DNA of 26,093 nt from positions 1-26,093 of IMG/VR virus record IMGVR_UViG_3300042566_000144. The stretch is one strand, 5' to 3'. Below the pieces are notes generated by a model, which was not told the origin of the DNA, searched no databases, and was given only the letters and a program-made list of their open reading frames with translations. Both the position numbers and the translations under genes were made by a program. How positions within the stretch are numbered: the first letter of the stretch is position 1; every line of letters begins with the position of its first letter. Source of the DNA: a virus. Below, in pieces: positions 1,121 through 23,397 of the stretch.

Positions 1121-4100
1121 TGGGCAGCGGATTCTTCTCACAGGACAACCCGCCACCTCTTGAGCAGGGTGAAGCAGGCACAGGCCCAGGTAACGTCGTC
1201 GTACAAGAGCCGACCGGCGTAGACGGCGCGACGTCGTCGTTCTTTGGCCGTGGCGCGTCTCCGACGCTCCAAGCGTTTGAAGAAGACGCAAAGCAAGCCG
1301 CTGAAGCGGCTGCGGCGAGCGCAGAAGAAGCTGACGGCAGTGCCACAGCAGCGGCGGGCAGCGCGACAGCAGCGGCGGGCAGCGCGAGTGCTGCCGACAC
1401 CAGCGCAGATCAAGCATTAGCATCCGCGAACGCGGCAGCAGGCAGCGCGACCAGCGCAGCGGCGAGTGCGTCGAGCGCCACTGGCAGCGCGACCAGCGCA
1501 GCAGGCAGCGCCACCACAGCAACGACAAAAGCGGCAGAAGCGGTTGTCTCGGCCAACGCGGCCAACACCAGCGCGGGCAACGCTGCGGCCAGTGCCACTA
1601 CGGCAACCACAAAAGCGGCAGAAGCGTCCACCAGCGCCACGGCAGCATCTGGCAGTGCGACCAACGCTGCGACGAGCGCCACTACGGCGACCACAAAAGC
1701 AGCAGAAGCGTCCACCAGTGCGACCAACGCGGCTGGCAGCGCCTCCACAGCAACGACAAAGGCAGCAGAAGCATCCACCAGTGCGACCAACGCGGCTGGC
1801 AGCGCGACCGCCGCCGGCACAAGTGCGACATCGGCTGGCACAAGCGCGACGAACGCGGCTAACAGTGCTACAGCAGCCTCGGGGAGCGCCACAGCAGCCG
1901 CTGGAAGCGCGACTGCGGCCTCTGGTAGTGCAACGGCTGCGGCAAACGCCCAGACAGCCGCTGAAGCGGCACGGGACTCCGCCCTGGCGGCATACGACCA
2001 GTTCGACGACCGCTACCTCGGCACGAAGACGTCTGACCCGACACTCGACAACGACGGCAACGCGCTTGTCGCGGGTGCGCTGTACTTCAACAGCACACTG
2101 GGCGAGATGCGGCTGTACACCGGTATGCAGTGGACCGCAGCGTATGTATCGGGCGCAGGCGTCCTACTGATCTCCAACAACCTGTCCGACTTAGCCAGTG
2201 CGTCTGCCGCGCGGACGAACCTCGGCTTGGCGACCGTAGCAGCATCTGGCGCCTATGCCGATCTGACCGGCAAGCCAACGAACGTCTCGGCGTTCACGAA
2301 CGACAGCGGCTATCTGACGAGCTTCACCGAAGCAGATCCGACCGTCCCATCGCACGTCAAAGCGATCACGACGACGAAGATCAGCAATTGGGACACTGCT
2401 TTCGGTTGGGGCAACCACGCATCTGCGGGTTATCTGACGAGCTTCACAGAGTCCGATCCGACTGTACCGTCACACGTCAAAGCGATCACGACGACGAACA
2501 TCAGTAACTGGAACGCAGCTTTTGGCTGGGGCAACCACGCATCTGCGGGATACCTTACCGGCATCACGTCTGGCCAGGTCACCACAGCCCTTGGATATAC
2601 GCCAGCTAACAGGGCTGGTGATACGTTTACGGGAACCATAACTACTACTGGCTTGCTGGGCGTAGGAACGACATCGCCAACAGCTATAGGCGGCTATGGA
2701 ACCATCACCTTGGACGGGGCGACAGGCTCGTTCACTGACTATAGGCAAAATGGAACTAATCGGCTACGCATTGGCGGTGACAATGGAGCGGGGTTCATTA
2801 ACGCTCCATCTGGCACTCTGCGTTTGCTTACTAATGACGCAGACCGCTTGACAATCAATTCCAGCGGTAACGTCACAGCCGCTGTCGATGTTCGCGCACC
2901 TATCTTTTACGACAGTAACAACACTGGTTACTTTGTAGACGGCAGCAGCACTAGCGTTCTGCAAACCATTCAAGCTGTAGATGGCGATGGCTTTCGCTCC
3001 CTTAAAAACGGAAGCGCATCAATAACCAGCAGCATCTATTTCGCTAACGCCGCAAACACACGCGCATGGAACTGGCAGCTTGATGAAAACGACGCCGCCG
3101 CATTCTGGAGCTATGGCGGCTCGTCGTGGGGTAAGCGCCTTGGCTTGACGCATAACAGCGAACTGTTCTTGCGTAATTCGTCTGGCAGCGACGTGTCACT
3201 GGCATACCCATCCACGTTTGGATATTCGTCCAGCTACAAGACGATGGTTTTGGGTAATCAGTCCCTGACTACGGTCTGCATCGGCGTTTCTCCAGCGTCC
3301 AACCCAAGCGGCAGCTTTAACGGGGGTGGTCTTGGTCTTGAGGTTATGTTCCGTAATGGCGTTAACTTTATTACGCCAAACAGCGCGAACGACGGGTATC
3401 ACTTCCCGTTTAGCTTGGCTGATGGATATGCAGCCTCTAGTGGTAGCTTCCGCGCACCGATCTTCTACGACACCAACGACACTGGGTATTACGTTGACCC
3501 TGCCAGTGGTTCAAATCTAACGGGGCAAGTCCAGATTAACGGCGGGACTACAATGTCTGGCGGTTGGAACAGGGCGCTATACCTTGCGTCCCAATACCCT
3601 GTCATTGTGATGAACTCAGGAAGCGTCAAATACTCAGGCATTGGTGTCGATTACACTGAAGCTCAGAGTGGCATGGTGTTTTGGGTTAACGGCAACAGCG
3701 CCGACATAACCAACGGCTCTGCGACAGCGGCGCTGCGGATAAACACTGGAAACTTCGTCGTAGCTAATGATGTCCGTGCGACTGTCTTTTACGATAGCAA
3801 CAACTCTGCTTTCTACTTAAATCCCAACACCACCTCAAACGTCAGTGAAATGGTGTCCTATTCTTATCGTGGCAACGGCAACGTAGGCGGCACTGGCTCT
3901 GCATCATGGCATCCAAGCGGCATCTATTCGGCTGGGTATAACTGGCTCTACGGGGGTATCGGCGCGGGTGGCGGGGACATAACTGCTGTCAATGCTGTGT
4001 ATGCCAACGCCTACTATGACAGCGGCAACACTGCTTATTACGTTGACCCTGCCAGCGGGACGGTGCTTAACAGGCTTGTCTCCATAACAGGTGCGGGTAA

Positions 4101-5316
4101 CACCAACGGCGGCAACTTGCAGCTTGGTGATAGGGACGTAAACACCGCAAAGTGGTCTGTTTTAACTGGGGCGCACTACGGAGGCACATCGGAACCAAAG
4201 GGCGTTATGCTTATTGGTTCCTATTCGGCTTCTGGAAACAACAGTCTTAGCATCGGTGGCAACGTCTACGAAGCCAACCCCGCTACATACATCGCGTTTT
4301 ATACGGCTACCACTGGAACGCACCCGACAGGTGGGTTCAATCGGCTAAATATTAATGGAAGCGGTAACGTCACCGCTGAAGTCGATATTCGCACTCCAAT
4401 AGTATATGACGCTGACAACACTGGATTTTACGTCAACCCCGCTGGCACATATTCAGCAAACTTTGCTGGATACACATACTTCGGGAATCACGGCGGCGGG
4501 GTGGTCGGCAACTATAGCTCCTATCGCTACCAGCTTGTTTGGGCGATAGGTGACAGCTACAAAGGCACACTTGACGGAACAAGTGTAGCTGGCGGTTACG
4601 GCCTGTGGTTTTCCCACCCTAACGCTGGTGGAGTTGCATCAAACCTCTCCACTCACGGTTTAATGCTCATCCAAAACGGCGCTTTCATGGCATCGCTAGA
4701 CCCAAGTATGCGTGCCATTTACGATATGCGTTCGCCTATTTTTTACGACCTCAACAACACTGCTTACTTCCTCGACCCGAACAGCACATCCGTTTTGGCG
4801 ACAGTTCGTTCTGACCGCATCCAACACTCCAACGGAAACGAAGCCGTAACATTAAATAATGGTTCCTACTTAATGTTGCGTGACCCGACAGGACACATAG
4901 CTGCATACCTCGGCGGCGCTGACCCAGCCAACTACCACGACAACACCACTCATTATTTTCGCGACAGGGCTGGCTCAAACCGTTTTGTCATTGATAGTTC
5001 AGGAAATGTAACAGCAACTGGCAACGTCACTGCTTATTCCGACATCCGCGTTAAGGCTAACGTCGAGACGATCTCAAGCGCACTGGACAAGCTCGACCAG
5101 ATACGCGGCGTGACGTACACCCGCACAGACCTCGACGACAAAGAGCGGCGCTACGCTGGCGTCATCGCGCAGGAAATCGAAGCGGTTCTACCTGAAGCCG
5201 TGCGCGACCACGATGGCACCAAGGCGGTTGACTATAACGCCACCATCGGCTTGTTAATTCAGGCTGTAAAAGAATTGCAAATTGAGGTAGAGACTGTGAA
5301 GTCTCGGCTCCACTGA
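1120..5316 (+). CDS. Long tail fibre with C-terminal S74 self-cleaving chaperone
   Basis: A 1398-residue virion protein for receptor contact. Residues 1-50 look like a short virion anchor. Residues about 60-285 are Ala/Ser/Thr-rich with heptad-spaced repeats (predicted trimeric coiled coil). [16 protein letters not shown] is a common fibre linker, and two near-identical 40-residue units follow. Residues about 590-1230 hold six YDxNNTxYYVDP-type modules. The last 92 residues form an intramolecular chaperone (peptidase S74) with the dyad Ser1307 and Lys1312 in YSDIRVK, then [16 protein letters not shown] and a terminal coiled coil. In this family the chaperone trimerises the fibre and is released by self-cleavage near the serine. 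The ATG overlaps the adaptor stop by one base (TGATG). The middle is visibly AT-richer than the two ends. Confidence 0.9.
1525..1771 (+). repeat. Heptad-multiple coding repeats in the fibre shaft
   Basis: Four copies of an ACAAAAGCGGCAGAAG-like unit, coding for TKAAEA, begin at 1525, 1609, 1693 and 1756. The spacings are 84, 84 and 63 bases, i.e. 28, 28 and 21 residues, all multiples of seven. The surrounding Ala/Ser/Thr-rich tract (about 1312-1960) continues the pattern with shorter SATAAAG units. This is what in-register duplication of a heptad coiled coil would give. Confidence 0.85.
2308..2547 (+). repeat. Two tandem 120-bp units in the fibre gene
   Basis: Bases 2308-2427 and 2428-2547 are near-identical direct repeats of 120 bp, coding for two 40-residue units of the form [20 protein letters not shown], each followed by TTTxISNW and [11 protein letters not shown] third GYLTGI start at 2548 looks like a truncated copy. 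This module recurs in many phage fibres. Differences between the copies are mostly single substitutions, so the duplication is fairly recent or kept uniform by recombination. Confidence 0.9.
2896..4795 (+). repeat. Six dispersed YDxNNTxYYVDP modules in the fibre
   Basis: Related coding modules occur near 2896, 3454, 3778, 4006, 4393 and 4732. Their translations include [67 protein letters not shown] and [14 protein letters not shown]. Each tends to follow a V-R-A/T-P beta-type phrase, and all are separated by diverged inserts of about 75-185 residues. They look like repeated beta-structured shaft joints between variable domains. Confidence 0.85.
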
Positions 5317-6547: not shown

Positions 6548-7033
6548 ATGTTGACCGACCCCAAATGGTTGAAATATGCTCGCAGCAAGATCGGCGAACG
6601 CGAGATTAAAGGCCCACGGCATAACCCGTGGATTGTTCGCGGCTTGGCCAAGTTGAAGGCTTGGTGGTCGGACGACGAGACGCCGTGGTGCGGCTTTTTC
6701 GTGGCGTGGGCGATGGACGAGGCAGGACTGCCTTACCCGAAGCACTGGTATCGCGCGAAAGGCTGGTCCGATTACGGCGCGAACTTGCGCCCTGAACGCA
6801 TCGCGCCTGGCGCCATTCTCGTTTTCGACCGCAAAGGCGGTGGCCACGTTGGCTTCTACGTCGCCGAAAGTGCCACGCACTACCACGTCCTCGGCGGCAA
6901 CCAGAACAACGGCGTCAACATCGCGTCAATCGCCAAAGATCGGTGCGTCGCAATCCGCTGGCCGAAAGACCAGCCCGTGTTAGGCCGCATGGTCCGCAGG
7001 GCCACCGGCAACGTCTCTACCAACGAAGCATAG
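6548..7033 (+). CDS. Endolysin, CHAP/NlpC-P60-type cysteine amidase (TIGR02594-like)
   Basis: A 161-residue protein that would cleave peptidoglycan at the end of infection. The catalytic Cys48 lies in TPWCGFFVAWAM and the His100 in GGGHVGFYV. A third polar residue is offered by VLGGNQNNGV (Asn118-Asn121). This order and spacing, together with PKHWYRAKGW between them, is characteristic of the TIGR02594 phage/prophage cysteine hydrolases. There is no signal peptide, so export needs a holin; a 56-residue two-span candidate follows directly. A GGGGGGA ribosome site lies at the end of the previous gene. It is a full-length, single-domain enzyme without a cell-wall-binding domain, as expected for Gram-negative hosts. 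Confidence 0.85.
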   Translation: MLTDPKWLKYARSKIGEREIKGPRHNPWIVRGLAKLKAWWSDDETPWCGFFVAWAMDEAGLPYPKHWYRAKGWSDYGANLRPERIAPGAILVFDRKGGGHVGFYVAESATHYHVLGGNQNNGVNIASIAKDRCVAIRWPKDQPVLGRMVRRATGNVSTNEA

Positions 7034-7043
7034 GAGAAAACAA

Positions 7044-7214
7044 ATGTTTGCAGGACAAAAGACATACATCACCGCTGGCGTCGCTGTTATCGCGGCTGTC
7101 GCTGCATACCTGACCGGCGAAGCCGATCTGATGCAGACCGCCAATTTGGTGTTCACGGCTCTCATGGCCGCGTTCATCCGCAACGGCGTTACAGCAGAAA
7201 CCAAAACCAAGTGA
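7044..7214 (+). CDS. Small two-span membrane protein, holin candidate
   Basis: This short gene encodes 56 residues beginning MFAGQKTYITAGVAVIAAVA. Two hydrophobic segments (about residues 8-23 and 31-45) are separated by GEADLM, and the tail is charged (TAETKTK). The start is behind a strong TAGGAGAAAACAA ribosome site, ten bases after the endolysin stop. Its stop is overlapped by the next gene (GTGA). A tiny two-span hairpin between endolysin and spanins fits a small (class II- or pinholin-like) holin. No sequence family is recognised beyond that. Confidence 0.7.
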   Translation: MFAGQKTYITAGVAVIAAVAAYLTGEADLMQTANLVFTALMAAFIRNGVTAETKTK

Positions 7215-7432
7215 TACAGGGCATCAAGCAGTTGCTGCTTCTCTTACAGGCGATCTTTCGCCTGTTTGGGGATAGGCAACTGCTTGAGGCCGGTAAAGCG
7301 CAACAGCGCGACGCGGACGCCAAGGAGGTCATCAAACGTGAAGAAAAAGCTGAACAGGCTGTGGCTATTGATGATCCCGTTCGCACTGAGCGGCTGCGTA
7401 GCCGCTTCGACCGCGCCCGCAGTAGTGAGTGA
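7211..7432 (+). CDS. Inner-membrane spanin (Rz-like)
   Basis: A 73-residue protein starting at GTG 7211, overlapping the preceding stop by four bases. Residues 3-19 (QGIKQLLLLLQAIFRLF) form an N-terminal membrane helix. Residues 22-55 are a highly charged helix (LEAGKAQQRDADAKEVIKRE), and a basic tail follows. This is the layout of a short i-spanin, which spans the periplasm and pairs with an outer-membrane lipoprotein. That partner is encoded out of frame inside its 3' part, the classical Rz/Rz1 nesting. It is shorter than lambda Rz, but similar compact proteins are common in alpha- and betaproteobacterial phages. Confidence 0.65.
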   Translation: MIQGIKQLLLLLQAIFRLFGDRQLLEAGKAQQRDADAKEVIKREEKAEQAVAIDDPVRTERLRSRFDRARSSE

Positions 7433-7571
7433 TTACTGTCGCATCGCAACGCCGCTCACATACGACTCTGAGCGCGACACGATGCCGACGATAAAAGAGA
7501 TAGAGGCCCACAACAGCAAGTGGGTGTGTGTTTGTGAAAATGACTGTCCTAATAAAACGGTCGTCAATTAA
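7338..7571 (+). CDS. Outer-membrane spanin lipoprotein (Rz1-like)
   Basis: A 77-residue protein. The GTG at 7338 is chosen because a perfect AAGGAGGT lies at 7322-7329 and because the protein then begins with a lipoprotein signal: VKKKLNRLWLLMIPFALSGC. LSGC is the lipobox, with the lipidated Cys at residue 20. The mature part contains four further Cys (YCRIATP; WVCVCENDC) and ends NKTVVN. An upstream ATG at 7266 would bury the signal behind 24 basic residues and has no ribosome site. The gene overlaps the inner spanin by 95 bases in another frame, so the pair would fuse inner and outer membranes during lysis. Confidence 0.75.
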   Translation: MKKKLNRLWLLMIPFALSGCVAASTAPAVVSDYCRIATPLTYDSERDTMPTIKEIEAHNSKWVCVCENDCPNKTVVN

Positions 7572-7609: not shown

Positions 7610-8917
7610 ATGGGTCTTGAGAGCGCGACATTTATTAACGGATTGGTCGAGACGAACCCGACGTCGTCGGACAACGCCAACCAGGGCGACAACCATCTGC
7701 GCCTGATCAAGGCTGCTTTGAAGGCGACCTTCCCCAACCTCACTGGCGCCGTAACGGCGACACAGGCGACGCTGAACACGCCGTATCTGCCCTTGGCGGG
7801 TGGGACACTTACTGGCGGACTGGCTGGCACCACAGCGAGCTTCAGCGGTGCGGTGACGGCCACAGGCGGCGTTGTGGGCAACGCCTCAACGGCGACGACG
7901 CTCCAGACCGCTCGCACGATCAACGGCGTGTCGTTTAACGGCAGCGCCAACATCTCGTTCGGCACCGACAGCGTGGCCGAAGGCTCCACGAACCTCTATT
8001 TCAGCAACGCCCGTGCGCGTTCAGCGATCAGCGCCAGTGGCTCACTGGCGTACAACAGCGCGACTGGCGTCATCAGCTTCACCGACGCGGTAACGTCCGT
8101 TGCGGGTAAGACCGGCGCGGTGGCATTGAACACCGCAGACGTCGCCGAAAGCGGCAATCTCTATTACAGCGATGCCCGCGCCCGTGCTGCGGTCAGCGTG
8201 ACAGGCGCTGGCTCATATAACAGCACGACAGGCGTGATTACCGTGAACGCGGCCCCCGTCTCCAGCGTAGCTGGCAAGACCGGCGCGGTGACACTAGCAA
8301 TTGCGGACACCTCCGGCCTACAGGCGGCGCTCGACGGCAAGCTCGGCACAGGAACGACGACAACCAGCATAAGTGAAGGCTCAAACCTTTACTACAGCGA
8401 TGGCCGCGCTCGTAGCGCGATCAGTGTCACTGGCGCCGGCTCGTACAACAGCACAACCGGCGTCATCACTGTAAACGCAGCCCCTGTCACCAGCGTGGCT
8501 GGCAAGACAGGCGCAGTGACCTTGGCCACATCGGACATCAGCGGCCTCGACAGCGCACTGGCGGGTAAGTTCTCGGCCAGTGGCGGCACCATCTCCGGCA
8601 ACGTGTCCGTGTCAGGCACAGTGACTGCCACTGGCGATATCACGGCGTTCTCGGATGAACGCACGAAGATAAACATCGAGACGATCACAGAGGCGCTGTA
8701 CAAGGTCAAGGCCATGCGTGGCGTCAGCTACATCAGCAAGTTCAACATGGAAGAGCGCATCGGCGTGGTCGCCCAAGAGGTTGAGCGCGTCGTGCCAGAG
8801 GTCGTCCACACTCACTCCAACGGCCTGAAGAGCGTGGCGTACCAGAACTTGGTCGGCCTGCTCATCGAAGCCATCAAGGCTCTTGAACTGCGTGTCGCGG
8901 AGTTGGAGTCCGCCTAA
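7610..8917 (+). CDS. Short tail fibre with S74 self-cleaving chaperone
   Basis: A 435-residue protein. The N-terminus MGLESATFINGLVETNPTSS with GDNHLRLIKAALKATFPNLT is a well-known anchor domain of phage tail fibres. The shaft (about residues 60-330) has three repeated units of type NLYYSDARARAAVSVTGAGS followed by YNSTTGVIT and SVAGKTGAVTL. The C-terminal chaperone has the dyad Ser348 and Lys353 in FSDERTK, then RIGVVAQEVERVVPEV and a final coiled coil. The fold trimerises the fibre and is then cut off by itself. It is the second S74 protein in the window, separated from the first by the lysis genes, and its anchor is unlike that of the long fibre. Confidence 0.88.
   Translation: MGLESATFINGLVETNPTSSDNANQGDNHLRLIKAALKATFPNLTGAVTATQATLNTPYLPLAGGTLTGGLAGTTASFSGAVTATGGVVGNASTATTLQTARTINGVSFNGSANISFGTDSVAEGSTNLYFSNARARSAISASGSLAYNSATGVISFTDAVTSVAGKTGAVALNTADVAESGNLYYSDARARAAVSVTGAGSYNSTTGVITVNAAPVSSVAGKTGAVTLAIADTSGLQAALDGKLGTGTTTTSISEGSNLYYSDGRARSAISVTGAGSYNSTTGVITVNAAPVTSVAGKTGAVTLATSDISGLDSALAGKFSASGGTISGNVSVSGTVTATGDITAFSDERTKINIETITEALYKVKAMRGVSYISKFNMEERIGVVAQEVERVVPEVVHTHSNGLKSVAYQNLVGLLIEAIKALELRVAELESA
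7991..8523 (+). repeat. Three shaft repeats in the short fibre
   Basis: Units starting at 7991, 8156 and 8384 each encode NLYxSxxRARxAxS, then YNSxTGVI, then SVAGKTGAV. Starts are 165 and 228 bases apart. The second and third copies are nearly the same, while the first is more diverged (VISFTDAVTS in place of VITVNAAPVSS). An extra linker with SGLQAALDGKLGTGTTTTSI separates copies two and three. Confidence 0.85.
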
Positions 8918-10488
8918 TGGTCATGGTTCCTCTACGGAACATCGGCGCTGGCGGGCTTGTCCCCGATCAGCAGCCGTATGACGTCGAACTGACCCAGTTC
9001 GCCGCCGGCAATAACGTGCAGATGTTCAACGGTCGTCTGGGCAAGTCCCTGGGCTACGTCGACGTGGCCACCGTGGCCAACGCCCCGACGCACGTCGCGG
9101 GCTGGCTGGTGGACGGCAACAACAGCATCGTCATCGGCACGACCAATAACCTCTATCGCTACGCTGGGTCCAGCGTCGTCAACGTCACCGCAGCGGCGTA
9201 CACCGGAGGCTACGCGAACAGCCCACGCTGGCAGACCAGCCAGATCGGCCTTGGCTTCTTGGCGAACAACGGCAGCGACAAACCACAATACATGGCGCCA
9301 AACGGCACAGAGTTCGCCGACCTCGCCAACTGGCCTGCTAATCTCCGCACGAACTGCATCCGCCCGTTCGTCTCATTCTTGGTGATGGTCGGCTACAGCG
9401 ATGGCAGCGACGAAGCGCCGTACACCGTGCGGTGGGGCGATGAGTTCGACCCGACGACGGTGCCAGGCAGCTACGACATCACCAGCACGACCAACTTAGC
9501 GGGTGAGAACATCCTCGGTGGCCGTCTGGGCAAGCTGGTGGACTGCCTACCGCTGGCCGGCAACAACATCATTTACGCCGAACGTGGCGCGTACTCAATG
9601 TCATTCATTGGCGCCCCGCTGGTGTTTGCGTTCCGCGACCTGTTCGACGACGGCGGCATCATCAACCGTGGCGCGGTCTGCGTGTTCGACAACCGGCATT
9701 TCGTGGTCGGACGTGACGACATCTACATCCACGACGGCTCGGCGAAGCAGCCAGTGGCCACGAAGCGCGTCAAAGACACGTTCTACAGCAGCGTGGCGGA
9801 CGCCCGCAGCGTGTTCGTCGTCCACGAACCTTCGACCAACGAGATCTGGGTCGGGTATGCAGACAAGAACGCGGCGAACGCCGAGACGGCCAACAGGGCG
9901 ATGGTGTGGAACTATGCCAACGACGCATGGACTTTCCGCGATCTGCCGAACGTGCGTTCGATGTGTGTCGGTCCTGCCATCGGCGGTGGCGGCAGCGGCA
10001 CAGGCGCGACCTGGGATGAACTGAACGTCCAGTGGGATAGCTGGTCGGCATTGTGGACTGACCTTGGCGCCGACACACAGGCTCGCAACACCCGTCTGTT
10101 CTCAGCCAATTACGGTGCATCCAAAATCCAAGCGCACAACGAGACGTTCGGCGCAGCCGCCGTGGCGTACACATCATTTGTCGAGACGACAAAGATCGAC
10201 CTCGACGCAGTGCTTCAGCGCCCGACAGAGCGTGTCCTTCAGATCAAACGCATCCTGCCGCAGATAAAAGGCAGCGGCGCGGTCACTTTTCGGGTCGGTT
10301 CGTCGCCCACCCCGCAGGGGCCGGTGACGTGGAAGACAACGAAAGAATACAACGTCGAAACCGATTACAAGATCGATACCCGTGTTTCTGGTCGTTATCT
10401 TGCGTTAAGGATTGAATCTTCGTCCGTTGCAGGGTATTGGCAGTTGGGTGGATTTGATTTGGATGTAGAAGAGGTGTCAGAGCGGTGA
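8917..10488 (+). CDS. Tail nozzle/hub-like structural protein
   Basis: A 523-residue protein beginning MVMVPLRNIGAGGLVPDQQP then FAAGNNVQMFNGRLGKSLGY. It is rich in beta-strand patterns with repeated Trp/Tyr/Gly blades such as WLVDGNNSIVIGTTNNLYRY, YGSKIQAHNE-like strands and WVGYADKNAA. The C-terminal third resembles a beta-sandwich (GAVTFRVGSSPTPQG; GRYLALRIES). A beta-propeller-like plan, length and position between fibres and ejection genes fit the nozzle proteins of short-tailed phages (analogous to T7 gp12 or P22 gp10). The assignment is by architecture and context, not by a diagnostic motif. The start overlaps the fibre stop (TAATG). The last 200 bases are AT-richer than the rest. Confidence 0.5.
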   Translation: MVMVPLRNIGAGGLVPDQQPYDVELTQFAAGNNVQMFNGRLGKSLGYVDVATVANAPTHVAGWLVDGNNSIVIGTTNNLYRYAGSSVVNVTAAAYTGGYANSPRWQTSQIGLGFLANNGSDKPQYMAPNGTEFADLANWPANLRTNCIRPFVSFLVMVGYSDGSDEAPYTVRWGDEFDPTTVPGSYDITSTTNLAGENILGGRLGKLVDCLPLAGNNIIYAERGAYSMSFIGAPLVFAFRDLFDDGGIINRGAVCVFDNRHFVVGRDDIYIHDGSAKQPVATKRVKDTFYSSVADARSVFVVHEPSTNEIWVGYADKNAANAETANRAMVWNYANDAWTFRDLPNVRSMCVGPAIGGGGSGTGATWDELNVQWDSWSALWTDLGADTQARNTRLFSANYGASKIQAHNETFGAAAVAYTSFVETTKIDLDAVLQRPTERVLQIKRILPQIKGSGAVTFRVGSSPTPQGPVTWKTTKEYNVETDYKIDTRVSGRYLALRIESSSVAGYWQLGGFDLDVEEVSER

Positions 10489-12660: not shown

Positions 12661-13638
12661 ATGGCGGTTAATTTCCAACGCAGGAATGTTGGCGTACTGG
12701 CCGACACACCGACTTTCGAAGATGTCGGGCGCAGTTCGTATGTGGACTACGCCGCCGCAGCGGCGCGGGCGCCAACAGCTAGCGTGATGCCCGCTGCCGT
12801 AAAGTCGGCAGAGGTACAAAAGACGCCCGCACTCGCTGGCCCGCAAACGCCAGAAGCGATGGCGGAGTACGAAGCAGCCCAACTCGCGGCTCTACAGCAA
12901 GCCGAAGAGGCGGCTTTGCGCCAGCGCCAGTCGGTAAAGAACCCACTCAACGTCGTCGGCAACGCGATCAGCGCCGTGGTCGGCACACCGTTCCGGCTTC
13001 TTGAGAACGCCATCGGTGGCGGCAACAACGATCTCGCGGCTCCGTTCCGCCCGAACCAAACAGCGCAGGATCGTTACCAGTCGAAACTGGCCGACATCAG
13101 CACCGCCAAACTGGGCCTCATGCAGACGATGGACGGTATGCGCGCAAACCAGACGCAGGCCATGACGAACCTCTTGACCGACCGCTCCAAGGTGTTGGGA
13201 GAGGCATACGACCTTGCAGCAAATCTGGCGCAGAACGCAAAAGGCGCGGCGGACCCTAATGGCACATACACCCAAGGTCTGGCCAATTTGCTACAAGACC
13301 CAGTGTACGGCCCTGTCCTCAAAAGTGTTGGCGTCGACAAGATGGCTTACACCCCAGATCTCGCGCGCACACTGGCCCGTGGTAAAGACATAACAACCCG
13401 TCTGGATGAAATGGGTAAACCGTTCTTCCAATCGATCACAGAAAACGGGACAGGCGTAGTCTACAACCCCGACGGCAGCATCAAACAGATCATTCAGTAC
13501 GGAGAGCCTATCCCCACTGGCGCGCCTCCGCCCGTGTCGTTGAACCCGACGCCACCCACCGAGTTACCTTCGTTTACAGAAGACGATTGGAACAACGCAG
13601 GAGGCACCAGCGGTAACGCTGGTGGCACCTTTCGGTAG
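12661..13638 (+). CDS. Internal virion / ejection-type protein
   Basis: A 325-residue protein. Residues about 65-92 form a charged Ala/Gln helix (EYEAAQLAALQQAEEAALRQ). Residues about 95-118 are more hydrophobic (VVGNAISAVVGTPFRLLENA). Residues 130-215 are helical (YQSKLADISTAKLGLMQTMD). The C-terminus is a Pro-rich linker (PTGAPPPVSLNPTPPTELPS) followed by a short Gly-rich end. There is no catalytic motif. The gene lies three bases after its predecessor, and the peptidase gene starts 13 bases after its stop, so the set is probably produced together. An ejection role is inferred from context. Confidence 0.5.
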   Translation: MAVNFQRRNVGVLADTPTFEDVGRSSYVDYAAAAARAPTASVMPAAVKSAEVQKTPALAGPQTPEAMAEYEAAQLAALQQAEEAALRQRQSVKNPLNVVGNAISAVVGTPFRLLENAIGGGNNDLAAPFRPNQTAQDRYQSKLADISTAKLGLMQTMDGMRANQTQAMTNLLTDRSKVLGEAYDLAANLAQNAKGAADPNGTYTQGLANLLQDPVYGPVLKSVGVDKMAYTPDLARTLARGKDITTRLDEMGKPFFQSITENGTGVVYNPDGSIKQIIQYGEPIPTGAPPPVSLNPTPPTELPSFTEDDWNNAGGTSGNAGGTFR

Positions 13639-13651
13639 GGACTTCGACCCA

Positions 13652-13948
13652 ATGGCCAATCTAGGAAAACTAGGGTTCACACCAACGAGCGGGTTTAGGA
13701 CACAAGCGCACCAAGACGCTCTTGTGGCGCAGGGTTTGACCAACACACGGACAGGTTCGCACCAAAGCGGCGACGGGTTGGACCTCGGCATCCCGAAAGG
13801 GATGACAAAGGCCGAAGCAATTGAGCGGATTAGGCTTGAATACCCTGGCAGTAAAGCTATCCCGTCGAACGGAAACGCTATACACGTCACATTCCCTGGC
13901 TGGGGCAACGCCCCCGACGTAAGTAATTCTCGTGGAAGGTACAAATAA
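13652..13948 (+). CDS. M15-like zinc D,D/L,D-peptidase, virion-associated candidate
   Basis: A 98-residue protein. SGFRTQAHQDALVAQG (13-28) and GSHQSGDGLDLGIP (35-48) match the substrate and zinc-binding phrases of the M15 carboxypeptidase family (SxHxxGxAxD), giving His37 and Asp44. His78 in NAIHVTF is the probable third ligand. This is close to the smallest M15 domain. Start ATG 13652 follows TAGGGA; an in-frame GTG at 13622, inside the previous gene, would add ten residues. Because a separate endolysin exists in the lysis cassette and this gene sits between ejection-type genes, it may open the cell wall during DNA entry. The fold is recognised from motifs; the entry role is inferred. Confidence 0.65.
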   Translation: MANLGKLGFTPTSGFRTQAHQDALVAQGLTNTRTGSHQSGDGLDLGIPKGMTKAEAIERIRLEYPGSKAIPSNGNAIHVTFPGWGNAPDVSNSRGRYK

Positions 13949-16900
13949 ATGGCAGAGCGTAAGGTCATCAATGGGTTCATCGTCGAGCGTCAGCCAAATG
14001 GTTCGATAGTGACTATCGGCCCTGCTGCGCCGACGCAAAACGGCCCTGCGGTAACGCGCGTTCCGCTTCCGCCTGCGACTGCGGCGAAGAACCAAGCAGA
14101 TCTGAGCAACACAGGGTCGCAGATCACCAGCCGCGCCGTTGGCGACGTCAACACGAACGCCAACACCGACAAGACCGTCCTTGATACAAAAATGACGGGA
14201 CTTGAATACGACGACGCGCTGAAGAACCGCGCCCGTGGCGTAGTTGTCGAAGACGCTGCCACGCAGGAAGTGCGTAACCAACTGTTGGCAGTGCGTAACG
14301 CGCGCCAATACAACAACGCATACAGCACCGGAACTATTGGTGGTTTGATTGGACGCCCCGACCGCCCTGGCGCTGAAGGCAGCGGCATCTCCGGCTTACC
14401 AGTCATTGGCGGGGCGCTGTACGCCGGCACCGACCGCGCTGGTCTTGAGGCCGCCCTTGGCACAATCCGCTCTGGCGCCAAGTTCAACATGATCCAGACA
14501 TTGAAAGAACGCGGTGCGGCGCAGGGCGCGCAAGGCACGGGTCTCGGTTCGACCGCCATCCCTGAATTTGAGGCACTTGGCCGTGTTAACTTCAACGTAG
14601 AACCTGACGCGCTCGACACCAACCCTCAATTCCTTTCCGGCGAACTGGACAAGGCAGAAGAGACCTTGCTGCGCCGCTATGCAGCGGTCACTCTGCCATC
14701 CGACGTTTTGGTAGGCGCCACCCGTGAACAGCGGAAGGCTTTACTTGACGCTTCATATGAGCAGGCGAAGCGTGAATATCTCGGCGGCTTTGCGCCTGGC
14801 GGTACAGACCAAGGCGGCGGTGGCCAAGGGGGTGGCGGCGTCCCATCGCTGACCCCAGAGAACATGTCCCGTGGGCCGCAGACCATCAGTAAGACTGAAT
14901 TCAAGCTTCTCCCCGATCCGGCGAAGAAGGGCTTAAACACCACGGTTCAAGGCATGATCCGTAACGGCTCGTCCGCGTCCGAAATCATCTCGCTGCTGGA
15001 GACACGCGGCGTACCGATGTCCGACGTGCTGGTATCGACGGTGCAGCGCAACGTGGAAGCCTACCGGCCATACGCTGGCAAGCCTCTGCCCAGCAACCTC
15101 CCAGACCCGCGTGTAAATGTTGAAGTGCAACTTGACGAGAATTCGCTCCTTGAGCGGGTTGCCGGCAACATGGCCGACACCGGCTACGGGGCTTTTGCCG
15201 TAGGCACGGCCAACGGTATGCTGTTGGGTGGGCTTGATGAAGTTGCCAGTGGTGGCGACCCTGAGCGTATGGCTCAAATCGACGCGTACAAGCGGTACAC
15301 CAGCGACAATTCACCATTCCTTTCTACCCTCGGCAACATCACGGGTGGCATCGCCAGCTTCCTGCCTGTTGGCCGTGGCATCAACGCAGCAGCGAAAGCA
15401 ACACAACTCAGCCCCACGGTAGCCCGTTTGGTGCAAGGTGGCGCGAACGTAGCTCTGGGCGCCACCGCTGGCGCGCTTGAGAACAACGAAGACCGTAAGA
15501 CTGGCGCCCTGATCGGCGGCGGCGCTGCTCTCGGCGGCGACTTGGCCGGTAACTACATAGGCGGCAAACTCGCCGGTCGTTTGGCGGAGACACCCAGCGG
15601 CGCGGAGTCGCTCATCGCCGAGAACGTGGTTAACCCTGTTCTGGCCCGTGAGACACTTGACCAAGCCGACAATCTCGGTCTGCCTGCAACACTGGCCGAC
15701 GCCGACCCTGGCGCTCGTTCACTCGCGTACAACGCCATCACAAACTCCGCCGAAGCAGGCCAGCAGGGGCGTCAGACCCTCCTTGGCAGGGATCGGGCGA
15801 GTGGCAGTCGCGCTGTATTGGCGGTAGACAGCAATCTCGCGGCAGAGACGAACGTCGTCAAGCTGGGTAAGGACATCACCGGCAAGGCGGTGCTTGACGC
15901 TGCGCCTATCAAACAGGCTGCGTTCTCCAAGATGTCGCCTGTGGCTGACCCTGAACTTAACTCACTGCTGCAACGGCCATCCGCGAAAGCGGGCCTGGCC
16001 AACGCGCAGAAGATCGCCAAGGAAGAAGGCCGCGACTGGAAGGCGCTTGGCGTCGACCTAGACGGCGAAGGCAATGTCGTGCTGAAGGAAGGCGCGTCGT
16101 GGGAGAGCCTCGACTATATGCGCCGTGGTATCGACTCTTACATCGACACGTTCCGCAACGACGCGGGCAAGTTGGTGTACGACCGTGGCGGCAATCTGCG
16201 CGCGGTGCTGAAGACCCGTGGCGAGATGGTCGACCGGATGCGTGGGCTGAACGAAGACTACGGCGGCTATCTCGACACTTTGTCGCCTGCGATGTCGCAG
16301 GCTGAACAGTTGACCCTCGGCGGTAAGGCGATCATGTCGCCAAAGACAAACGCCAAAGAGATCGCCGAACACATCAAAGACCTCTCGCCAGAGGATCTGG
16401 ACTCGTATCGCATCGGCGTGGCCAACAAGATCATCGACCAGATGAAGCGCAAAGGCCGCAACCAAGACCCTTGGGAAATGCTGCGTGGCGACGATATGCA
16501 GGAGAGGCTTAAGGTCGTATTCCCTGAAGCCGATGTCAGCAACATCAACACCCGCGCGGACTTCGAAGACCTCATGCGTGAGACGAAGCGTAACCTCATT
16601 GACGGTTCGCAGACCGACCCACGCCGTCTTGTAAGTGACAGTTTTGCATCCCAAGCCGGTCAGCCAGGCATTCTGGCCCGCGTGACTGAAGGTGGTGCAG
16701 CTATGTACACAGGCGGCGTGTCGTTGCTGCCGGCTCTTGTGCGCCAAGGGGCGTTGAGCTTCAAGAACGCAGGCAAGTTGGAAGCTGTCCGCAACCAAGA
16801 AGCACTGGCCAAAGAGCTTCAGCCTATCCTGCTGGAGACTGACCCGAAGAAGGCAAAGCAAGCACTTGACAAGATCCTCGCCAAAGTCGACACGTTCGAC

Positions 16901-16975
16901 AAGGTGAAGAAAACATCCAAGGAAGTGGGCCGGTCCGTAGGAGCCGGCGCAATGACAGGGATTTTAGCCCAGTAA
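13949..16975 (+). CDS. Large ejection (internal virion) protein
   Basis: A 1008-residue protein directly after the peptidase stop, with GGAAGG upstream. Residues 1-280 form a mixed domain (EVRNQLLAVRNARQYNNAYS). A glycine linker (TDQGGGGQGGGGVPS) lies near residue 285-300. A Gly/Ala-rich, weakly hydrophobic region (about 405-550) includes GAFAVGTANGMLLGGLDEVA and GALIGGGAALGGDLAGNYIG. The rest is long and helical, with the C-terminus VGAGAMTGILAQ. Length, plan and position fit the largest ejection protein of short-tailed phages (analogous to T7 gp16 or P22 gp16), which crosses the envelope during infection. The Gly/Ala-rich region could insert in a membrane. No transglycosylase motif is obvious. 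Confidence 0.55.
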   Translation: MAERKVINGFIVERQPNGSIVTIGPAAPTQNGPAVTRVPLPPATAAKNQADLSNTGSQITSRAVGDVNTNANTDKTVLDTKMTGLEYDDALKNRARGVVVEDAATQEVRNQLLAVRNARQYNNAYSTGTIGGLIGRPDRPGAEGSGISGLPVIGGALYAGTDRAGLEAALGTIRSGAKFNMIQTLKERGAAQGAQGTGLGSTAIPEFEALGRVNFNVEPDALDTNPQFLSGELDKAEETLLRRYAAVTLPSDVLVGATREQRKALLDASYEQAKREYLGGFAPGGTDQGGGGQGGGGVPSLTPENMSRGPQTISKTEFKLLPDPAKKGLNTTVQGMIRNGSSASEIISLLETRGVPMSDVLVSTVQRNVEAYRPYAGKPLPSNLPDPRVNVEVQLDENSLLERVAGNMADTGYGAFAVGTANGMLLGGLDEVASGGDPERMAQIDAYKRYTSDNSPFLSTLGNITGGIASFLPVGRGINAAAKATQLSPTVARLVQGGANVALGATAGALENNEDRKTGALIGGGAALGGDLAGNYIGGKLAGRLAETPSGAESLIAENVVNPVLARETLDQADNLGLPATLADADPGARSLAYNAITNSAEAGQQGRQTLLGRDRASGSRAVLAVDSNLAAETNVVKLGKDITGKAVLDAAPIKQAAFSKMSPVADPELNSLLQRPSAKAGLANAQKIAKEEGRDWKALGVDLDGEGNVVLKEGASWESLDYMRRGIDSYIDTFRNDAGKLVYDRGGNLRAVLKTRGEMVDRMRGLNEDYGGYLDTLSPAMSQAEQLTLGGKAIMSPKTNAKEIAEHIKDLSPEDLDSYRIGVANKIIDQMKRKGRNQDPWEMLRGDDMQERLKVVFPEADVSNINTRADFEDLMRETKRNLIDGSQTDPRRLVSDSFASQAGQPGILARVTEGGAAMYTGGVSLLPALVRQGALSFKNAGKLEAVRNQEALAKELQPILLETDPKKAKQALDKILAKVDTFDKVKKTSKEVGRSVGAGAMTGILAQ

Positions 16976-16993: not shown

Positions 16994-17704
16994 ATGGCGC
17001 CAAAGATTCTGTTTTTGGACATCGAAACGAAGCCCGCAGTCGTGGCTTCGTTCGGTATCCGCGATCAACACATAGGCCATAAACAAATACTGAAAGACGG
17101 CGGCGTCATCTGCGTCGGAATGAAGTGGCTGGCCGACAAGAAAGCCCAGGTGTACAGCGACTGGGAGCATGGCCACAAGGAGATGCTCCAGATCGTCCAC
17201 GCGGCGCTTGAGGAGGCGGAAGCCGTGGCCACCTATAACGGCGCGTCATTCGATCTTCCGAAGTTGCAGGGCGAGTTCCTGCTGCACGGCCTTCCGCCGG
17301 CCCCGCACCTTACCCAGATCGACATTTACAGGTCGGTGCGGAAGCTGGGGTACATCTGCAACAAGCTCGACTACGTCGCCCAGATATTGGGCCTCGGCAG
17401 CAAGGTGAAGCACGAAGGCTTAGACCTGTGGCTCAAGGTGATGGACGGCGACGAAGCAGCCCAGCGCCGCATGACGAAATACTGCGCTGGCGATGTTATG
17501 CTGACCGAGAAGGTCTACAAGCACGTCAGGGCGTTCATCTCCACCCACCCGCACATGGGGGCCACCAAGCCTTTGGACTGCGGCGCCTGCGGCTCCAGCC
17601 GCACCCAGGCACGGGGCTTCCACCGGACGAAGGCCAGCATCCGCCAACGGTATCAGTGCCAAGCGTGTGGCAGTTGGAGCTTGGGGAACGCGAAGCGGGC
17701 TTGA
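16994..17704 (+). CDS. RNase H-like 3'-5' exonuclease with C-terminal zinc ribbon
   Basis: A 236-residue protein. The three exonuclease motifs of the DnaQ/YprB-like superfamily are visible: Asp9 and Glu11 in LFLDIET, Asn82 and Asp87 in TYNGASFDLPKL, and Tyr163 with Asp167 in KYCAGDVMLTEKVY. Residues 193-226 form a zinc ribbon (CGACG at 196-200 and CQACGS at 222-227, four Cys). This suggests a metal-dependent nuclease acting on DNA or RNA with an extra nucleic-acid-binding module. It follows the late genes on the same strand but sits beside the integration region, away from the replication operon. Its role could be end processing in recombination, host nucleic acid breakdown, or replication; the sequence does not decide. 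Confidence 0.75.
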   Translation: MAPKILFLDIETKPAVVASFGIRDQHIGHKQILKDGGVICVGMKWLADKKAQVYSDWEHGHKEMLQIVHAALEEAEAVATYNGASFDLPKLQGEFLLHGLPPAPHLTQIDIYRSVRKLGYICNKLDYVAQILGLGSKVKHEGLDLWLKVMDGDEAAQRRMTKYCAGDVMLTEKVYKHVRAFISTHPHMGATKPLDCGACGSSRTQARGFHRTKASIRQRYQCQACGSWSLGNAKRA

Positions 17705-17928: not shown

Positions 17929-18984
17929 ATGGCCGTTATCCAAAAGCGTGGCGACAGCTACAGAGTCCTGATCCGCAAGAAGGGCCACGCCGCAGTCTCC
18001 AAGACGTTCAAGACGAAAGCCCTGGCTGAACGCTGGGCGCGAGACACCGAATACAAGATCGACGAAGGCAAGTTCGCGGTGGACAAAGCCACCGTGGCCG
18101 ACACCGTCGAGGAATACCTCAAGCGCATGGCCCAGATCGGCAAGCCGGTGCCGTACAACAAGGCGATCATCGTCCGCCGTGCGGCCACTGACCTTGGCGA
18201 CAAGCGCCTCGACCAACTGACGACCGAAGTTCTGGTCGACTGGGTCAGCGGCAAGCGCGACATCCTGCCCAGCACCCGCCAGCAGTATGTAATTTACTTC
18301 CGCACCGTCCTGACCACCGCCGAGACGCTGTGGGAAGCACGGCCAGACATGGTGTCCTACGAACGCGCTGTGCGCTTCATGCGGACCCACGGCATCATCG
18401 CCGAGTCCAACGTGCGTGACCGGCGGGTCAGCGACGACGAGATCGATACCATCGTCGACCACTTCACCCACTCCCGCATCCCGTATGAGGACATCCTGCC
18501 GTTCCAACTGGCCAGTGCCTTCCGCATCGGCGAGACGTGCCGCCTGCGGTGGGACGACATCAACGAGGCCGACCGGACGATCCTGATCCGCCAGCGGAAA
18601 CATCCACGCAAGAAGCGTGACGAGATCGCCCCGCTGCTGGGCGCCGCGTGGGACATCGTCCAGCGCCAGCCGCGTACCAGTGAGTTCATCTTCCCGTACA
18701 AGGCAGATTCGGTCAGCACGGGCGTCACCGTTGCCGTCGCGGCAACTGGCATCGAAGACCTTCACCTTCACGACATCCGCCACGAAGCGATCAGCCGCCT
18801 GTTCGAACAGGGCTACGGCATCACTGAAGTGCAGCTTTGCTCTGGCCACAAAGACCTGAAAATGCTCCAGCGGTATCTGCATCTTCGCCCTGCGGATCTG
18901 CACAACGGCCCTGTGGCCATCCGCCGCTACCAAGAGAAGATCGAAGCGGCGGGGAACGTGATCCCTATGACGCGCGCCGCGTAA
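17929..18984 (+). CDS. int: Tyrosine-recombinase integrase
   Basis: A 351-residue site-specific recombinase that would insert the phage genome in the host chromosome. Residues 1-60 hold an arm-binding-type N-terminus (AVIQKRGDSYRVLIRKKGHA). Residues about 60-155 are the core-binding domain and 165-325 the catalytic domain. The full catalytic set is visible: Arg199 (ASAFRIGETCRLRW), Lys224 (RQRKHPRKKR), His281 and Arg284 (LHDIRHEAISRLF), His307 (CSGHKDL) and Tyr316 (LQRYLHL). AAGGAG lies seven bases before the ATG. The start is within 12 bases of an inverted-repeat arm, so autoregulation by a bound protein is plausible. The 3' end overlaps the opposing excisionase-like gene by 20 bases. Confidence 0.95.
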   Translation: MAVIQKRGDSYRVLIRKKGHAAVSKTFKTKALAERWARDTEYKIDEGKFAVDKATVADTVEEYLKRMAQIGKPVPYNKAIIVRRAATDLGDKRLDQLTTEVLVDWVSGKRDILPSTRQQYVIYFRTVLTTAETLWEARPDMVSYERAVRFMRTHGIIAESNVRDRRVSDDEIDTIVDHFTHSRIPYEDILPFQLASAFRIGETCRLRWDDINEADRTILIRQRKHPRKKRDEIAPLLGAAWDIVQRQPRTSEFIFPYKADSVSTGVTVAVAATGIEDLHLHDIRHEAISRLFEQGYGITEVQLCSGHKDLKMLQRYLHLRPADLHNGPVAIRRYQEKIEAAGNVIPMTRAA

Positions 18985-21234: not shown

Positions 21235-21487
21235 CTATCGCACTTTCTACGCTGTCGCAGACCCAGACTTCGCAGCCAGCGTCTTTCAGTTTGCGGATCG
21301 TCTGCGCCTGAAGCGGTGTCGGCTTCTTCCCTGGCGCCTTGAATTCAATGAACACGACGTGGCCAGCCTTAATGAAGATCCGGTCAGGCACACCGCGCTG
21401 TGATGGGCTGACGAACTTGTAAGTCAGCCAGCCCTTGGCCTTGGCCCACTTCACGACCTTGGCTTCGATGTCACGTTCCAGAATCAC
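21218..21487 (-). CDS. VRR-NUC domain nuclease
   Basis: An 89-residue protein. GTG 21487 is preferred because it overlaps the polymerase stop in GTGA and lies eight bases beyond AAAGGT; a GTG at 21505 would add six residues. The single domain has the PD-(D/E)XK core of VRR-NUC proteins: VPDRIF (Asp35), VFIEFKAPG (Glu48, Lys50) and PTPLQ with Gln60, then a helix and GCEVWVCDSVESAI. Stand-alone phage VRR-NUC proteins cut branched DNA structures, and this gene sits between polymerase and helicase as in many phage replication cassettes. Confidence 0.9.
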   Translation of the reverse strand: MILERDIEAKVVKWAKAKGWLTYKFVSPSQRGVPDRIFIKAGHVVFIEFKAPGKKPTPLQAQTIRKLKDAGCEVWVCDSVESAIDALSE

Positions 21488-23397
21488 TTCCGATACCTTT
21501 CGCACTCAAAGCCCTCGACAGCCATCGGCAAGCCGGTGGCCCAGTCGGGCATTTCACACATCAGCCGTTCAAATTCTTCCAACGAGCCGAATCCAATCGG
21601 CGCTTCAGACACCACTTCGTCATGCACCGACATAACCACGGGATAGCCAGCGGCCTCGACGCGCAACATGGCGTCGGCCAACAGGTCACGGCTCACAGCC
21701 TGCGTGACGTTTTCGCACAGCTTGCCGCCGTAGGTTGTGAGCTTCGCCCAGCGTCCGCCAAGGCGGCTGTCCGTTCCCCAGAACTCCAGACCGCTGTTGC
21801 CGATGACCGGCTTGTAGTAGGCCAGCCTGCGGCCTGACGGCAGCTTGGCGAACAGGAAGTCGCCATGACATTTGAATGTGATCGGCCCAGCCTCAAACGC
21901 ATGGCCACGGTGAAGCACAGCGTTCTTCGCCGCTTCTTCCAGCGCGTACCAGAAACGCGAGATGTTCCGGTTCGCCTTGCGCCACTTCACCTTGATGTCG
22001 TCGGCCATCTCGTCGGAGATCTCGACGCGGTACGCCGCAGCCATTGTCTGGAACGCACCGACGCCGCCCTGGTAGCCCAGCGCCAGCACTGCGACCTTGC
22101 CGATCTGGCGTTCTTCCTTGTCGGCCTTGGTGATGGTGCGACCGTAGATGCTTGTTGCGGCGTGGCAGTAGATGCACTGCCCACTGGCGAATACGTCCAA
22201 GGGCGCCTGCTCGCCAGCGAGCCACGCCAAGACGCGGGCTTCAATTGCGTTGAAGTCGGCCACAAGAAGGCGGTTGCCGGCGTCAGGCACGATCATCGAC
22301 CGCAGGGTCGAGGACAGCGCCACCATCGGGTCGCCGTACAGGATCTCCAGCAGTTCAGGGTCGCGGTGTTCAAAGAGCTTCACGCAGTTGTCGGCGTCGT
22401 CGAACGCAGGGCGAGGTAGGTTCTGCGGCTGGAAGCCACGACCGGCCCAGCGGCCTGTCTGCGCGCCGTGATACGAGAAGACGCCACGGGCGCGGTCGTC
22501 GTAGCCGGCGAGGTTCTGCATGGCCAGATACTTTGACGTGGACGCCTTGCCCAGCGTCTGCCGAACCTTCAACACGTCCCGCACGTTGGCGGGTAGCGCA
22601 GGGTCGGCCAGTGCCGCAAGGATCTCGTTCTTGTCGTAGCCGCCCAGCCGGTAGCCCTGATCGCGGCACCACGCCATGACCTGTGCGCGAGAGCCGACAC
22701 CGGACAGCGCGCCGTCAGTCAAATCGACCACACTGGCGTTCAGGCGCTCTGCCGTGGCGATGATCAGGTCAAGAGCGTTCTCGACGTTCGGCACATCGAT
22801 GCCGACACCGCGCCAGTTGATCTCTTGGTCAAGCAGCCACACGGCACGTTCGTGTTCGCCCATTGGCTTATAGCGTTGGATGTAATTCTTGATGGCCCGC
22901 TCTGTGACGACGTCCTGCTTGCAATAGGCATAAAGCTCGTCGAGCAAATGCTGGTCGCTGCGGCGTTCGCCACGGTACGGCTTGCACAGCCGCTGGATCA
23001 GGAAACGACCACGGGTGTCCTTCTGGTCGGCCAGGTCCAACACCTCCGCGCACTTGCCCAGCGCGCGGGGCAGGGCGAGGGTGGCTGCAAGCGCGGCGGT
23101 GTCGTTCCACTGCTTGGGGTCGATGTCGCAGTACCAGCCATGCTTGTGCATCTGGTAGTGCCACACGGCGCGTTCGAACGCACAGTTCCACGCCCAGATG
23201 TCTGCGGCACCATCAATCGCGTCGTACAGGCGCTGCGGGATAGCCTCACCAGGCACCCACAGCTGCGGCTCTTCGTCGTCGATGGCCCACGCCATGCACA
23301 ACACCTCTGTCGAGGGGTGCGCTGCGTAGTTGTAGCCGCCGGCTGTCTTGATGTCGCATTCGCTGTAGGTTTCGAAGTCGATGGATATAGCTGTCAA
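21484..23397 (-). CDS. Family A DNA polymerase with 3'-5' exonuclease
   Basis: A 637-residue replicative polymerase. Exonuclease: Asp7/Glu9 in SIDFETYS, NCAFE (Asn71, Glu75), and YCKQD (Tyr158, Asp162). Polymerase: motif A LVADFNAIEARVLAW (Asp381, Glu386), motif B RQIGKVAVLALGYQGG (Arg430, Lys434, Tyr442), motif C SVHDEVVSE (His592-Asp593-Glu594). All catalytic residues are present, so proofreading should be active. No 5'-nuclease domain is present, typical for phages. The best start is TTG 23397, four bases after the upstream stop and behind AGAGAAAG; no ATG or GTG lies closer. The 3' end overlaps the VRR-NUC start by four bases. Confidence 0.95.
   Translation of the reverse strand: MTAISIDFETYSECDIKTAGGYNYAAHPSTEVLCMAWAIDDEEPQLWVPGEAIPQRLYDAIDGAADIWAWNCAFERAVWHYQMHKHGWYCDIDPKQWNDTAALAATLALPRALGKCAEVLDLADQKDTRGRFLIQRLCKPYRGERRSDQHLLDELYAYCKQDVVTERAIKNYIQRYKPMGEHERAVWLLDQEINWRGVGIDVPNVENALDLIIATAERLNASVVDLTDGALSGVGSRAQVMAWCRDQGYRLGGYDKNEILAALADPALPANVRDVLKVRQTLGKASTSKYLAMQNLAGYDDRARGVFSYHGAQTGRWAGRGFQPQNLPRPAFDDADNCVKLFEHRDPELLEILYGDPMVALSSTLRSMIVPDAGNRLLVADFNAIEARVLAWLAGEQAPLDVFASGQCIYCHAATSIYGRTITKADKEERQIGKVAVLALGYQGGVGAFQTMAAAYRVEISDEMADDIKVKWRKANRNISRFWYALEEAAKNAVLHRGHAFEAGPITFKCHGDFLFAKLPSGRRLAYYKPVIGNSGLEFWGTDSRLGGRWAKLTTYGGKLCENVTQAVSRDLLADAMLRVEAAGYPVVMSVHDEVVSEAPIGFGSLEEFERLMCEMPDWATGLPMAVEGFECERYRK

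Follow-up and report, generated by a model that had tools for sequence, protein, structure and literature searches.

The window, that is, the whole 26,093-nt stretch of viral DNA analysed here, contains a cluster of ejection-type genes on the + strand. Within the cluster, a 98-residue ORF (13652–13948) holds His37, Asp44, and His78 at the positions named in the original prediction, which had read it as a minimal M15-like peptidase. The ORF follows the gene of a 325-residue protein and lies in a different reading frame. The junction between the two frames is composed of a Shine-Dalgarno-like sequence, a hairpin, a short spacer, and a putative shift site (Table 1).

Table 1. Features at the gene junction, in window coordinates
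Feature	Position	Strand	Basis
Upstream gene, 0 frame, 325-residue ejection-cluster protein	12661..13638	+	ORF list, cluster position
GGAGG, internal Shine-Dalgarno-like sequence (0-frame codons GGA GGC)	13600..13604	+	Junction comparison
Hairpin, arms 13605-13612 and 13617-13624, loop GUAA 13613-13616	13605..13624	+	Covariation, folding
5-nt spacer between hairpin and shift codon	13625..13629	+	Junction comparison
Shift site UUU-C, proposed tRNA-Phe slip UUU to UUC	13630..13633	+	Junction comparison
0-frame stop UAG, one codon past shift codon	13636..13638	+	Sequence
+1-frame extension, 104 residues with M15-like domain, stop TAA 13946-13948	13634..13948	+	
Zinc-ligand triad codons	H37 13760-13762, D44 13781-13783, H78 13883-13885	+	Window sequence, alignment
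Next gene, 1008-residue ejection-type protein (phrog_5880, function unknown)	13949..16975	+	ATG abuts TAA

The ORF is far from the endolysin gene, a CHAP/TIGR02594 gene at 6548–7033, as had been noted originally. Adjoining the endolysin gene is a possible Rz1-like lipoprotein (7337–7571) with a KKKLNRLWLLMIPFALSGC lipobox, whose GTG start is preceded by AAGGAGGT and which is nested within the ORF at 7211–7432 in a different frame. Two tail fibres (1120–5316 and 7610–8917) both end in a Peptidase_S74 intramolecular chaperone. A polymerase exonuclease subunit is encoded apart, at 16994–17704 (phrog_403, E 1.5e-61), on the strand opposite to a large polymerase-like ORF (21484–23397), and its C terminus resembles a CxxC...CxxC zinc ribbon. 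The phage is probably temperate, because a tyrosine integrase is encoded at 17929–18984. A LUZ24 particle protein is 31% identical to the product of 8917–10488; no M15 domain was seen in the equivalent cluster of LUZ24, where gp50–gp55 have no relevant Pfam match.

Relatives of the locus were collected in successive scans. The first pass gave 15 relatives with 58–98% identity, all of which keep the M15 frame. Wider scans yielded 67 loci, and a later scan gave 103 further matches, of which 80 were kept and 15 loci were new. A prophage in Pelagerythrobacter marinus H32 carries an M15 locus (1 of 23 candidate stretches). Altogether 84 loci including the window were analysed, or 83 after removal of L081, whose junction is identical to that of L034. 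Fifty-four distinct junctions were drawn from 81 loci, leaving out L080 and L096; many loci are close relatives, and even counts of distinct junctions overstate their independence. When the 98-residue protein, a freshwater version of the M15 domain, the 1008-residue protein, and one upstream protein were searched against phages by tblastn, nothing useful was found. The predicted fusion described below gave one weak Microvirus match (E 0.02), which was taken as unrelated.

The M15-like assignment of the domain stands. The zinc-ligand triad, of the form H-x6-D...H (H43, D50, and H84 in alignment A7), is invariant in 45 of 45 relatives, as are Arg22, His26, and Gln27. Peptidase_M15_3 matches 16 of these 45 family members (best E 1.8e-5). 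The window's own 98-residue protein has no Pfam or NCBIfam match, and against PHROGs it gives weak endolysin-type matches alone (best E 1.6e-4). An AlphaFold2 model of the domain, built from the 45 sequences, has a mean pLDDT of 94.9. The structures that align best with the model are all of the M15/LAS type, namely LysECD7 (Z 7.1, rmsd 2.8 over 87 aligned residues), ChiX (Z 6.2), 1lbu (Z 6.0), and Ply500 (2vo9; Z 5.8). A LAS-type fold of the predicted structure is likely rather than proven, because all Z values are below 8. A real M15-like, wall-hydrolase-like domain located in the ejection cluster is supported.

M15 enzymes usually carry an aspartate or glutamate three residues before the last histidine. 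In the 45 family members this position is occupied by glycine (31), asparagine (12), or serine (2), and in none by an acidic residue. The peptidase activity of the window domain is unproven because the canonical M15 catalytic acid is absent. Hedgehog domains, which have the same fold, are also among the structure matches, and this M15 subtype could be a zinc-binding, wall-binding pseudo-enzyme rather than a peptidase, in which case the fused protein would still be made. We give this reading a fairly low probability, as the zinc triad and Arg22, His26, and Gln27 are invariant and other phages place SLT transglycosylase and Peptidase_M15_3 domains in the same slot.

The original prediction had treated the domain as a free-standing 98-residue subunit. 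This almost certainly does not hold. ATG 13652 is preceded by a conserved coding sequence, FGRDFDP, and the predicted window peptide DFDPMANLGK lies partly upstream of this codon. Conservation of the +1 frame reaches upstream past any start codon and into the last codons of 12661–13638. The domain frame extends upstream of the domain in all 15 first-scan relatives, and F-x-x-x-F-[DN]-P or a similar motif precedes any start codon in most of 14 junctions (window included, two near-identical loci left out) at which the preceding gene terminates in another frame. An ATG equivalent to that at 13652 is present in only 4 of the 54 distinct junctions. In 25 of the 54, neither ATG nor GTG occurs in the interval from the last in-frame stop to the domain, and 12 of these lack TTG there as well. 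ATG 13652 thus does not appear to be the true beginning of the M15 coding region. Independent translation of the domain from ATG 13652 or GTG 13622, coupled to the upstream stop, is highly unlikely. Both codons are in frame in the window and may permit some independent initiation, GGAGG is located upstream of GTG 13622, and a genuine gene starts directly at 13949. Yet such initiation is at odds with the conserved residues before ATG 13652 and with the junctions devoid of start codons, to which the SLT transglycosylase versions L197, L226, and L227, with no start codon near the junction, can be added. It also leaves an invariant UUU unexplained.

All 54 distinct junctions have this UUU in the upstream frame; UUU itself was used to locate the sites, and the fourth base was left free. 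The next base is C in 49 junctions and U in 5, and in all five UUU-U junctions the next 0-frame codon is a stop. The 0-frame stop usually lies 1–4 codons past UUU-Y. Upstream of GGAGG, mismatches between relatives concentrate at the third positions of 0-frame codons (74 versus 24 and 24 at the other positions, 13 pairs). After UUU-Y, they concentrate at the third positions of +1-frame codons (1419 versus 352 and 336, 210 pairs). As the third-position excess swaps from the 0 to the +1 frame there, selection switches frame at UUU-Y. For tRNA-Phe, whose anticodon is GAA, UUC is a better pairing partner than UUU. The shift sequence is common in itself, with 43 in-frame cases of UUU-C among 11,559 upstream codons; therefore, the stimulators must carry the specificity.

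The same fused product could in principle arise by −2 shifting or a short hop, which frame arithmetic cannot tell from a +1 slip, and a 5′ stem-loop is also used in gene 60 bypassing (excerpts of PMC5009743). However, the constraint switches frame at a UUU-Y that is ideal for +1 re-pairing, which makes this route barely credible.

The element preceding the shift site is built in a fixed order of GGAGG, a perfect hairpin of 7–8 bp, 4–5 nt, and UUU-C/U, with the hairpin starting 0–1 nt past GGAGG. Among 45 distinct junctions, the distance from GGAGG to UUU is 25 nt in 39, 28 nt in 5, and 24 nt in one (L080). GGAGG is present in all 45, which fixes the glycine codon as GGA, whereas GGA accounts for 131 of 818 glycine codons upstream. 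The hairpin occurs in two registers. The register with a 4-nt loop (9 sequences) has 72 of 72 cells paired, and both sides are changed in 7 of 8 pairs. The register with a 5-nt loop (28 sequences) has 99% of 196 cells paired, with both sides changed in 4 of 7 pairs. The covariation scores of both registers were reached by no shuffle, and consensus folding with alifold gave z values of −9.2 and −10.3. The stem forms in 41 of 41 distinct spacers, versus 0.9% under random synonymous recoding. On the 3′ side, no conserved structure was found in the 90 nt downstream (consensus folding z 0.6). Neither a sigma-70-like promoter nor a terminator-like site was found in 13400–14100, and the hairpin therefore does not represent a standard terminator. 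The element matches nothing in Rfam.

A search of both strands of 1.69 Mb gave 80 full motifs, every one at a junction, and 80 of the 83 protein-selected loci have it. Three loci deviate. In L080, which is one base shorter and has a degraded hairpin, the two frames form a natural in-frame fusion. L111 has GGGGGG in place of GGAGG. L096, near position 6000, would require a −1 shift (GGG GGG TAA) to enter the M15 frame and lacks the element; it is known from one record, in which an assembly error is possible.

Just upstream of GGAGG, the upstream protein has a mosaic C-terminal tail. In L062, L048, L054, and others, differing tail segments abut an invariant GGQT...F end, as if recombination had taken place at the 5′ border of the element.

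Viral contigs were then searched by the element alone, with no protein information, using two patterns. Of the 87 stretches found with the first pattern, 80 were examined; the base after UUU is C in 78 and U in 2. The +1 frames of these stretches encode the window-type M15 domain (54), an M15-like type with the motif SGYRGP...H...AVD...GPHWHV, hereafter GPHWHV (22), a lytic transglycosylase (3), and one M15_3-like domain (L175, assigned by eye). In the second pattern, five of the stem pairs were unconstrained, yet all 32 sites have a perfect 8-bp stem (G-U allowed), with 14 different arm pairs. One of the 32 +1 frames is cut by the contig end, and the others encode the window-type M15 domain (10), Peptidase_M15_3-like domains (9), SLT domains (7), an NNPGxLR lysozyme-like type (4), and GPHWHV (1). 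Thus, the two scans yielded 112 sites, and a wall-hydrolase-like domain is found in all 111 readable +1 frames. These contigs partly overlap the protein-selected set, and the two locus sets are therefore not independent; the other domain types are new to the protein-selected set. One 50.8-kb contig (IMGVR_UViG_3300035670_000305) carries two different copies of the element (L242 and L256), both with the window-type M15 domain. The pattern was absent from 396 of 396 Sphingomonadales genomes, which mainly shows its rarity by chance because the stem of the only known prophage among them differs.

The appended domains comprise three M15-like types, a lysozyme-like type, and an SLT transglycosylase. 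Class assignment relied on scripted motif matching, and representatives were then searched with profiles. All four SLT representatives tested match PF01464 (E 3e-20 to 1.9e-9), and all four Peptidase_M15_3 representatives tested score above the curated cut-off. The NNPGxLR type matches the endolysin family phrog_873 in 2 of 2 tested (best E 8.6e-14) and Pfam in 0 of 3 representatives. The GPHWHV type, which we take to be M15-like from its motifs, has no relevant Pfam or PHROG match.

The upstream partner also varies. BLASTP groups the window with L002, and 43 other distinct loci form a second group; profile comparison of the two groups detected no link. In the larger group, phrog_917 ("released from the phage upon host infection") is matched by 4 of 27 proteins and phrog_2534 by 2 of 27 (best E 4.9e-6). 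The model of the larger-group protein is helical with a mean pLDDT of 74.3, and has a low-confidence C-terminal tail at the site where the extension attaches. A fold search with this model gave no trustworthy match. A large protein follows the domain in nearly all loci with enough sequence. The proposed position between two ejection-type proteins is consistent with gene order and with the phrog_917 relatives. For the upstream protein of the window itself, however, there is no trustworthy database match and no detectable similarity to the phrog_917-matching family.

The element is also present in a cultured phage, the cyanophage Pam1. GGAGG, a hairpin, a 25-nt distance, and UUUU are found at the end of Pam1_14, annotated as "DNA/protein translocase of injectosome". 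Read in the +1 frame, the sequence yields an M15-like domain of the GPHWHF kind, whose annotated part is limited to the final 49 residues. The published 49-residue gene Pam1_15 (L276, 3630–3779) corresponds to the C-terminal half of the domain in the +1 frame, and its start site is probably mis-annotated. The 0-frame codon past UUU is UCG and not a stop, so a stop after UUUU is not a universal rule. Among the predicted tryptic peptides, GGQAAPPPAGFR would span the +1 junction, and GGQAAPPPAGFSDWL would come from the unshifted protein.

Fusions of the domain to a neighbour, suggested as a check in the original prediction, are found in frame not only in L080 but also in Sphingopyxis phage VSN-002 and in large prophage ORFs. 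In VSN-002, a related domain is part of a "DNA/protein translocase of phage P22 injectosome". Among the 396 Sphingomonadales genomes, five more encode giant ORFs of 1489–1654 residues (L161–L165) that include a distant M15 domain in frame, at the N terminus in 3 and at the C terminus in 2. In Caulobacter phage Jess A, an SLT domain is in frame in a 759-codon gene.

These observations lead us to propose that programmed +1 ribosomal frameshifting produces a 428-residue protein with a C-terminal M15-like, wall-hydrolase-like domain, a reading to which we assign a probability of about 0.9. The junctions combine a +1 ORF lacking a conserved start codon, a codon capable of re-pairing, and a conserved element, from which we infer both the slip and its stimulation. 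Ribosomes translating 12661–13638 would pass GGAGG, and the hairpin would refold behind them, reducing the distance from GGAGG to the shift codon from 25 linear nt to about 5. The tRNA-Phe would then slip one base forward, from UUU to UUC (or from UUU to UUU). Slipped ribosomes would resume at 13634 and yield the ejection-cluster protein joined to the M15-like domain (12661–13945), with 324 residues from 12661–13632 and 104 from 13634–13945. Unslipped ribosomes would halt at 13636 and yield the 325-residue form. Depending on the efficiency of the slip, the resulting mixture would place a limited number of hydrolase-bearing copies in the virion, where they may be ejected and help open the wall. 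The combination of hairpin bridging with stimulation by an upstream hairpin as a +1 mechanism is our proposal, put forward by analogy with the systems compared below.

Initiation of the domain at a non-AUG codon at UUU/UUC, from a hairpin-bridged ribosome-binding site as in T4 genes 25 and 38, has a negligible chance of being correct: the geometry is the same (22 to 5 and 27 to 11 nt in T4 according to excerpts of PMC3014915, 25 to about 5 nt here), but the +1 frame has no conserved start or near-start codon, UUU is never replaced by AUG in the loci read, and initiation at UUU would be in the wrong frame.

Beyond the window, the hairpin-bridged internal Shine-Dalgarno sequence probably represents a natural class of +1 stimulator and a general cassette of short-tailed phages, in which both the ejection protein and the appended hydrolase are exchanged and the RNA sets the ratio of hydrolase-bearing to plain ejection proteins. 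If true, the element would add a natural stimulator class to a field with no general +1 frameshift motif (excerpts of PMC10885494) and show how podophages dose wall hydrolases in the ejection machinery. It would also explain a recurrent annotation error in which a very short separate gene, with a start inside the domain, is annotated in its place, as in the 49-residue Pam1_15; a 61-residue BFVD entry with 64% identity is perhaps the same error. The element is specific enough for DNA pattern searches and could thereby reveal further proteins of this kind, and its occurrence in a cultured phage makes it testable at once.

Several components of the proposed mechanism are already known. Phage structural genes can use +1 frameshifting, ejected proteins can carry wall hydrolases in frame, and internal Shine-Dalgarno stimulators and hairpin-bridged Shine-Dalgarno sites are each known on their own. 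No report of a hairpin-bridged Shine-Dalgarno +1 element that serves interchangeable hydrolases, or of a frameshifted virion M15 domain, was found among the papers listed in searches of the open-licence PMC literature, which is not proof of absence.

The element resembles that of prfB (release factor 2) in having an internal Shine-Dalgarno sequence and a P-site slip of one base forward. Shine-Dalgarno sequences that stimulate +1 shifting lie 3 nt from the shift codon, and prfB itself has this spacing before CUU, a stop in the A site, and an autoregulatory role (excerpts of PMC5009743). Unlike prfB, the element described here has UUU-Y, a Shine-Dalgarno sequence 25 nt away that is bridged by a hairpin, and a stop usually 1–4 codons later. 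The linear spacing is 25, 28, or 24 nt rather than 3 nt, and comes to about 5 nt only if the hairpin folds.

The Listeria phages PSA, A118, and A500 use +1 frameshifts in capsid and tail-shaft genes, and share with the window the C-terminal extension of a phage structural protein by +1 shifting. They differ in having a CCC shift site and a 3′ pseudoknot or stop, and neither a hydrolase extension nor a 5′ hairpin and Shine-Dalgarno element is part of their description in the excerpts of PMC5009743.

In T4 genes 38 and 25, hairpins shorten the spacing between the Shine-Dalgarno sequence and the start codon, from 22 to 5 and from 27 to 11 nt (excerpts of PMC3014915). The likeness lies in the hairpin between the Shine-Dalgarno sequence and the target codon; the split sites of T4 serve AUG initiation and not frameshifting, and the target here is UUU instead of an initiation codon. 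Engineered hairpins placed upstream, beside the E site of 70S ribosomes, stimulate +1 shifting and mimic an internal Shine-Dalgarno sequence (excerpts of PMC6321510). Those hairpins belong to reporters with CUUUGA and without RF2, whereas the window element is natural and conserved and combines a hairpin with a Shine-Dalgarno sequence.

Finally, the predicted fusion is similar to the T7 gp16-type internal virion proteins with an endolysin domain (phrog_342), in that an ejected protein bears a wall hydrolase, and an SLT version of the cassette matches phrog_342 (E 1.8e-7). To our knowledge, the gp16-type hydrolase is always in frame and part of a single product. The hydrolase at the window junction, by contrast, would be added by frameshifting, and the added domains appear to be exchangeable.
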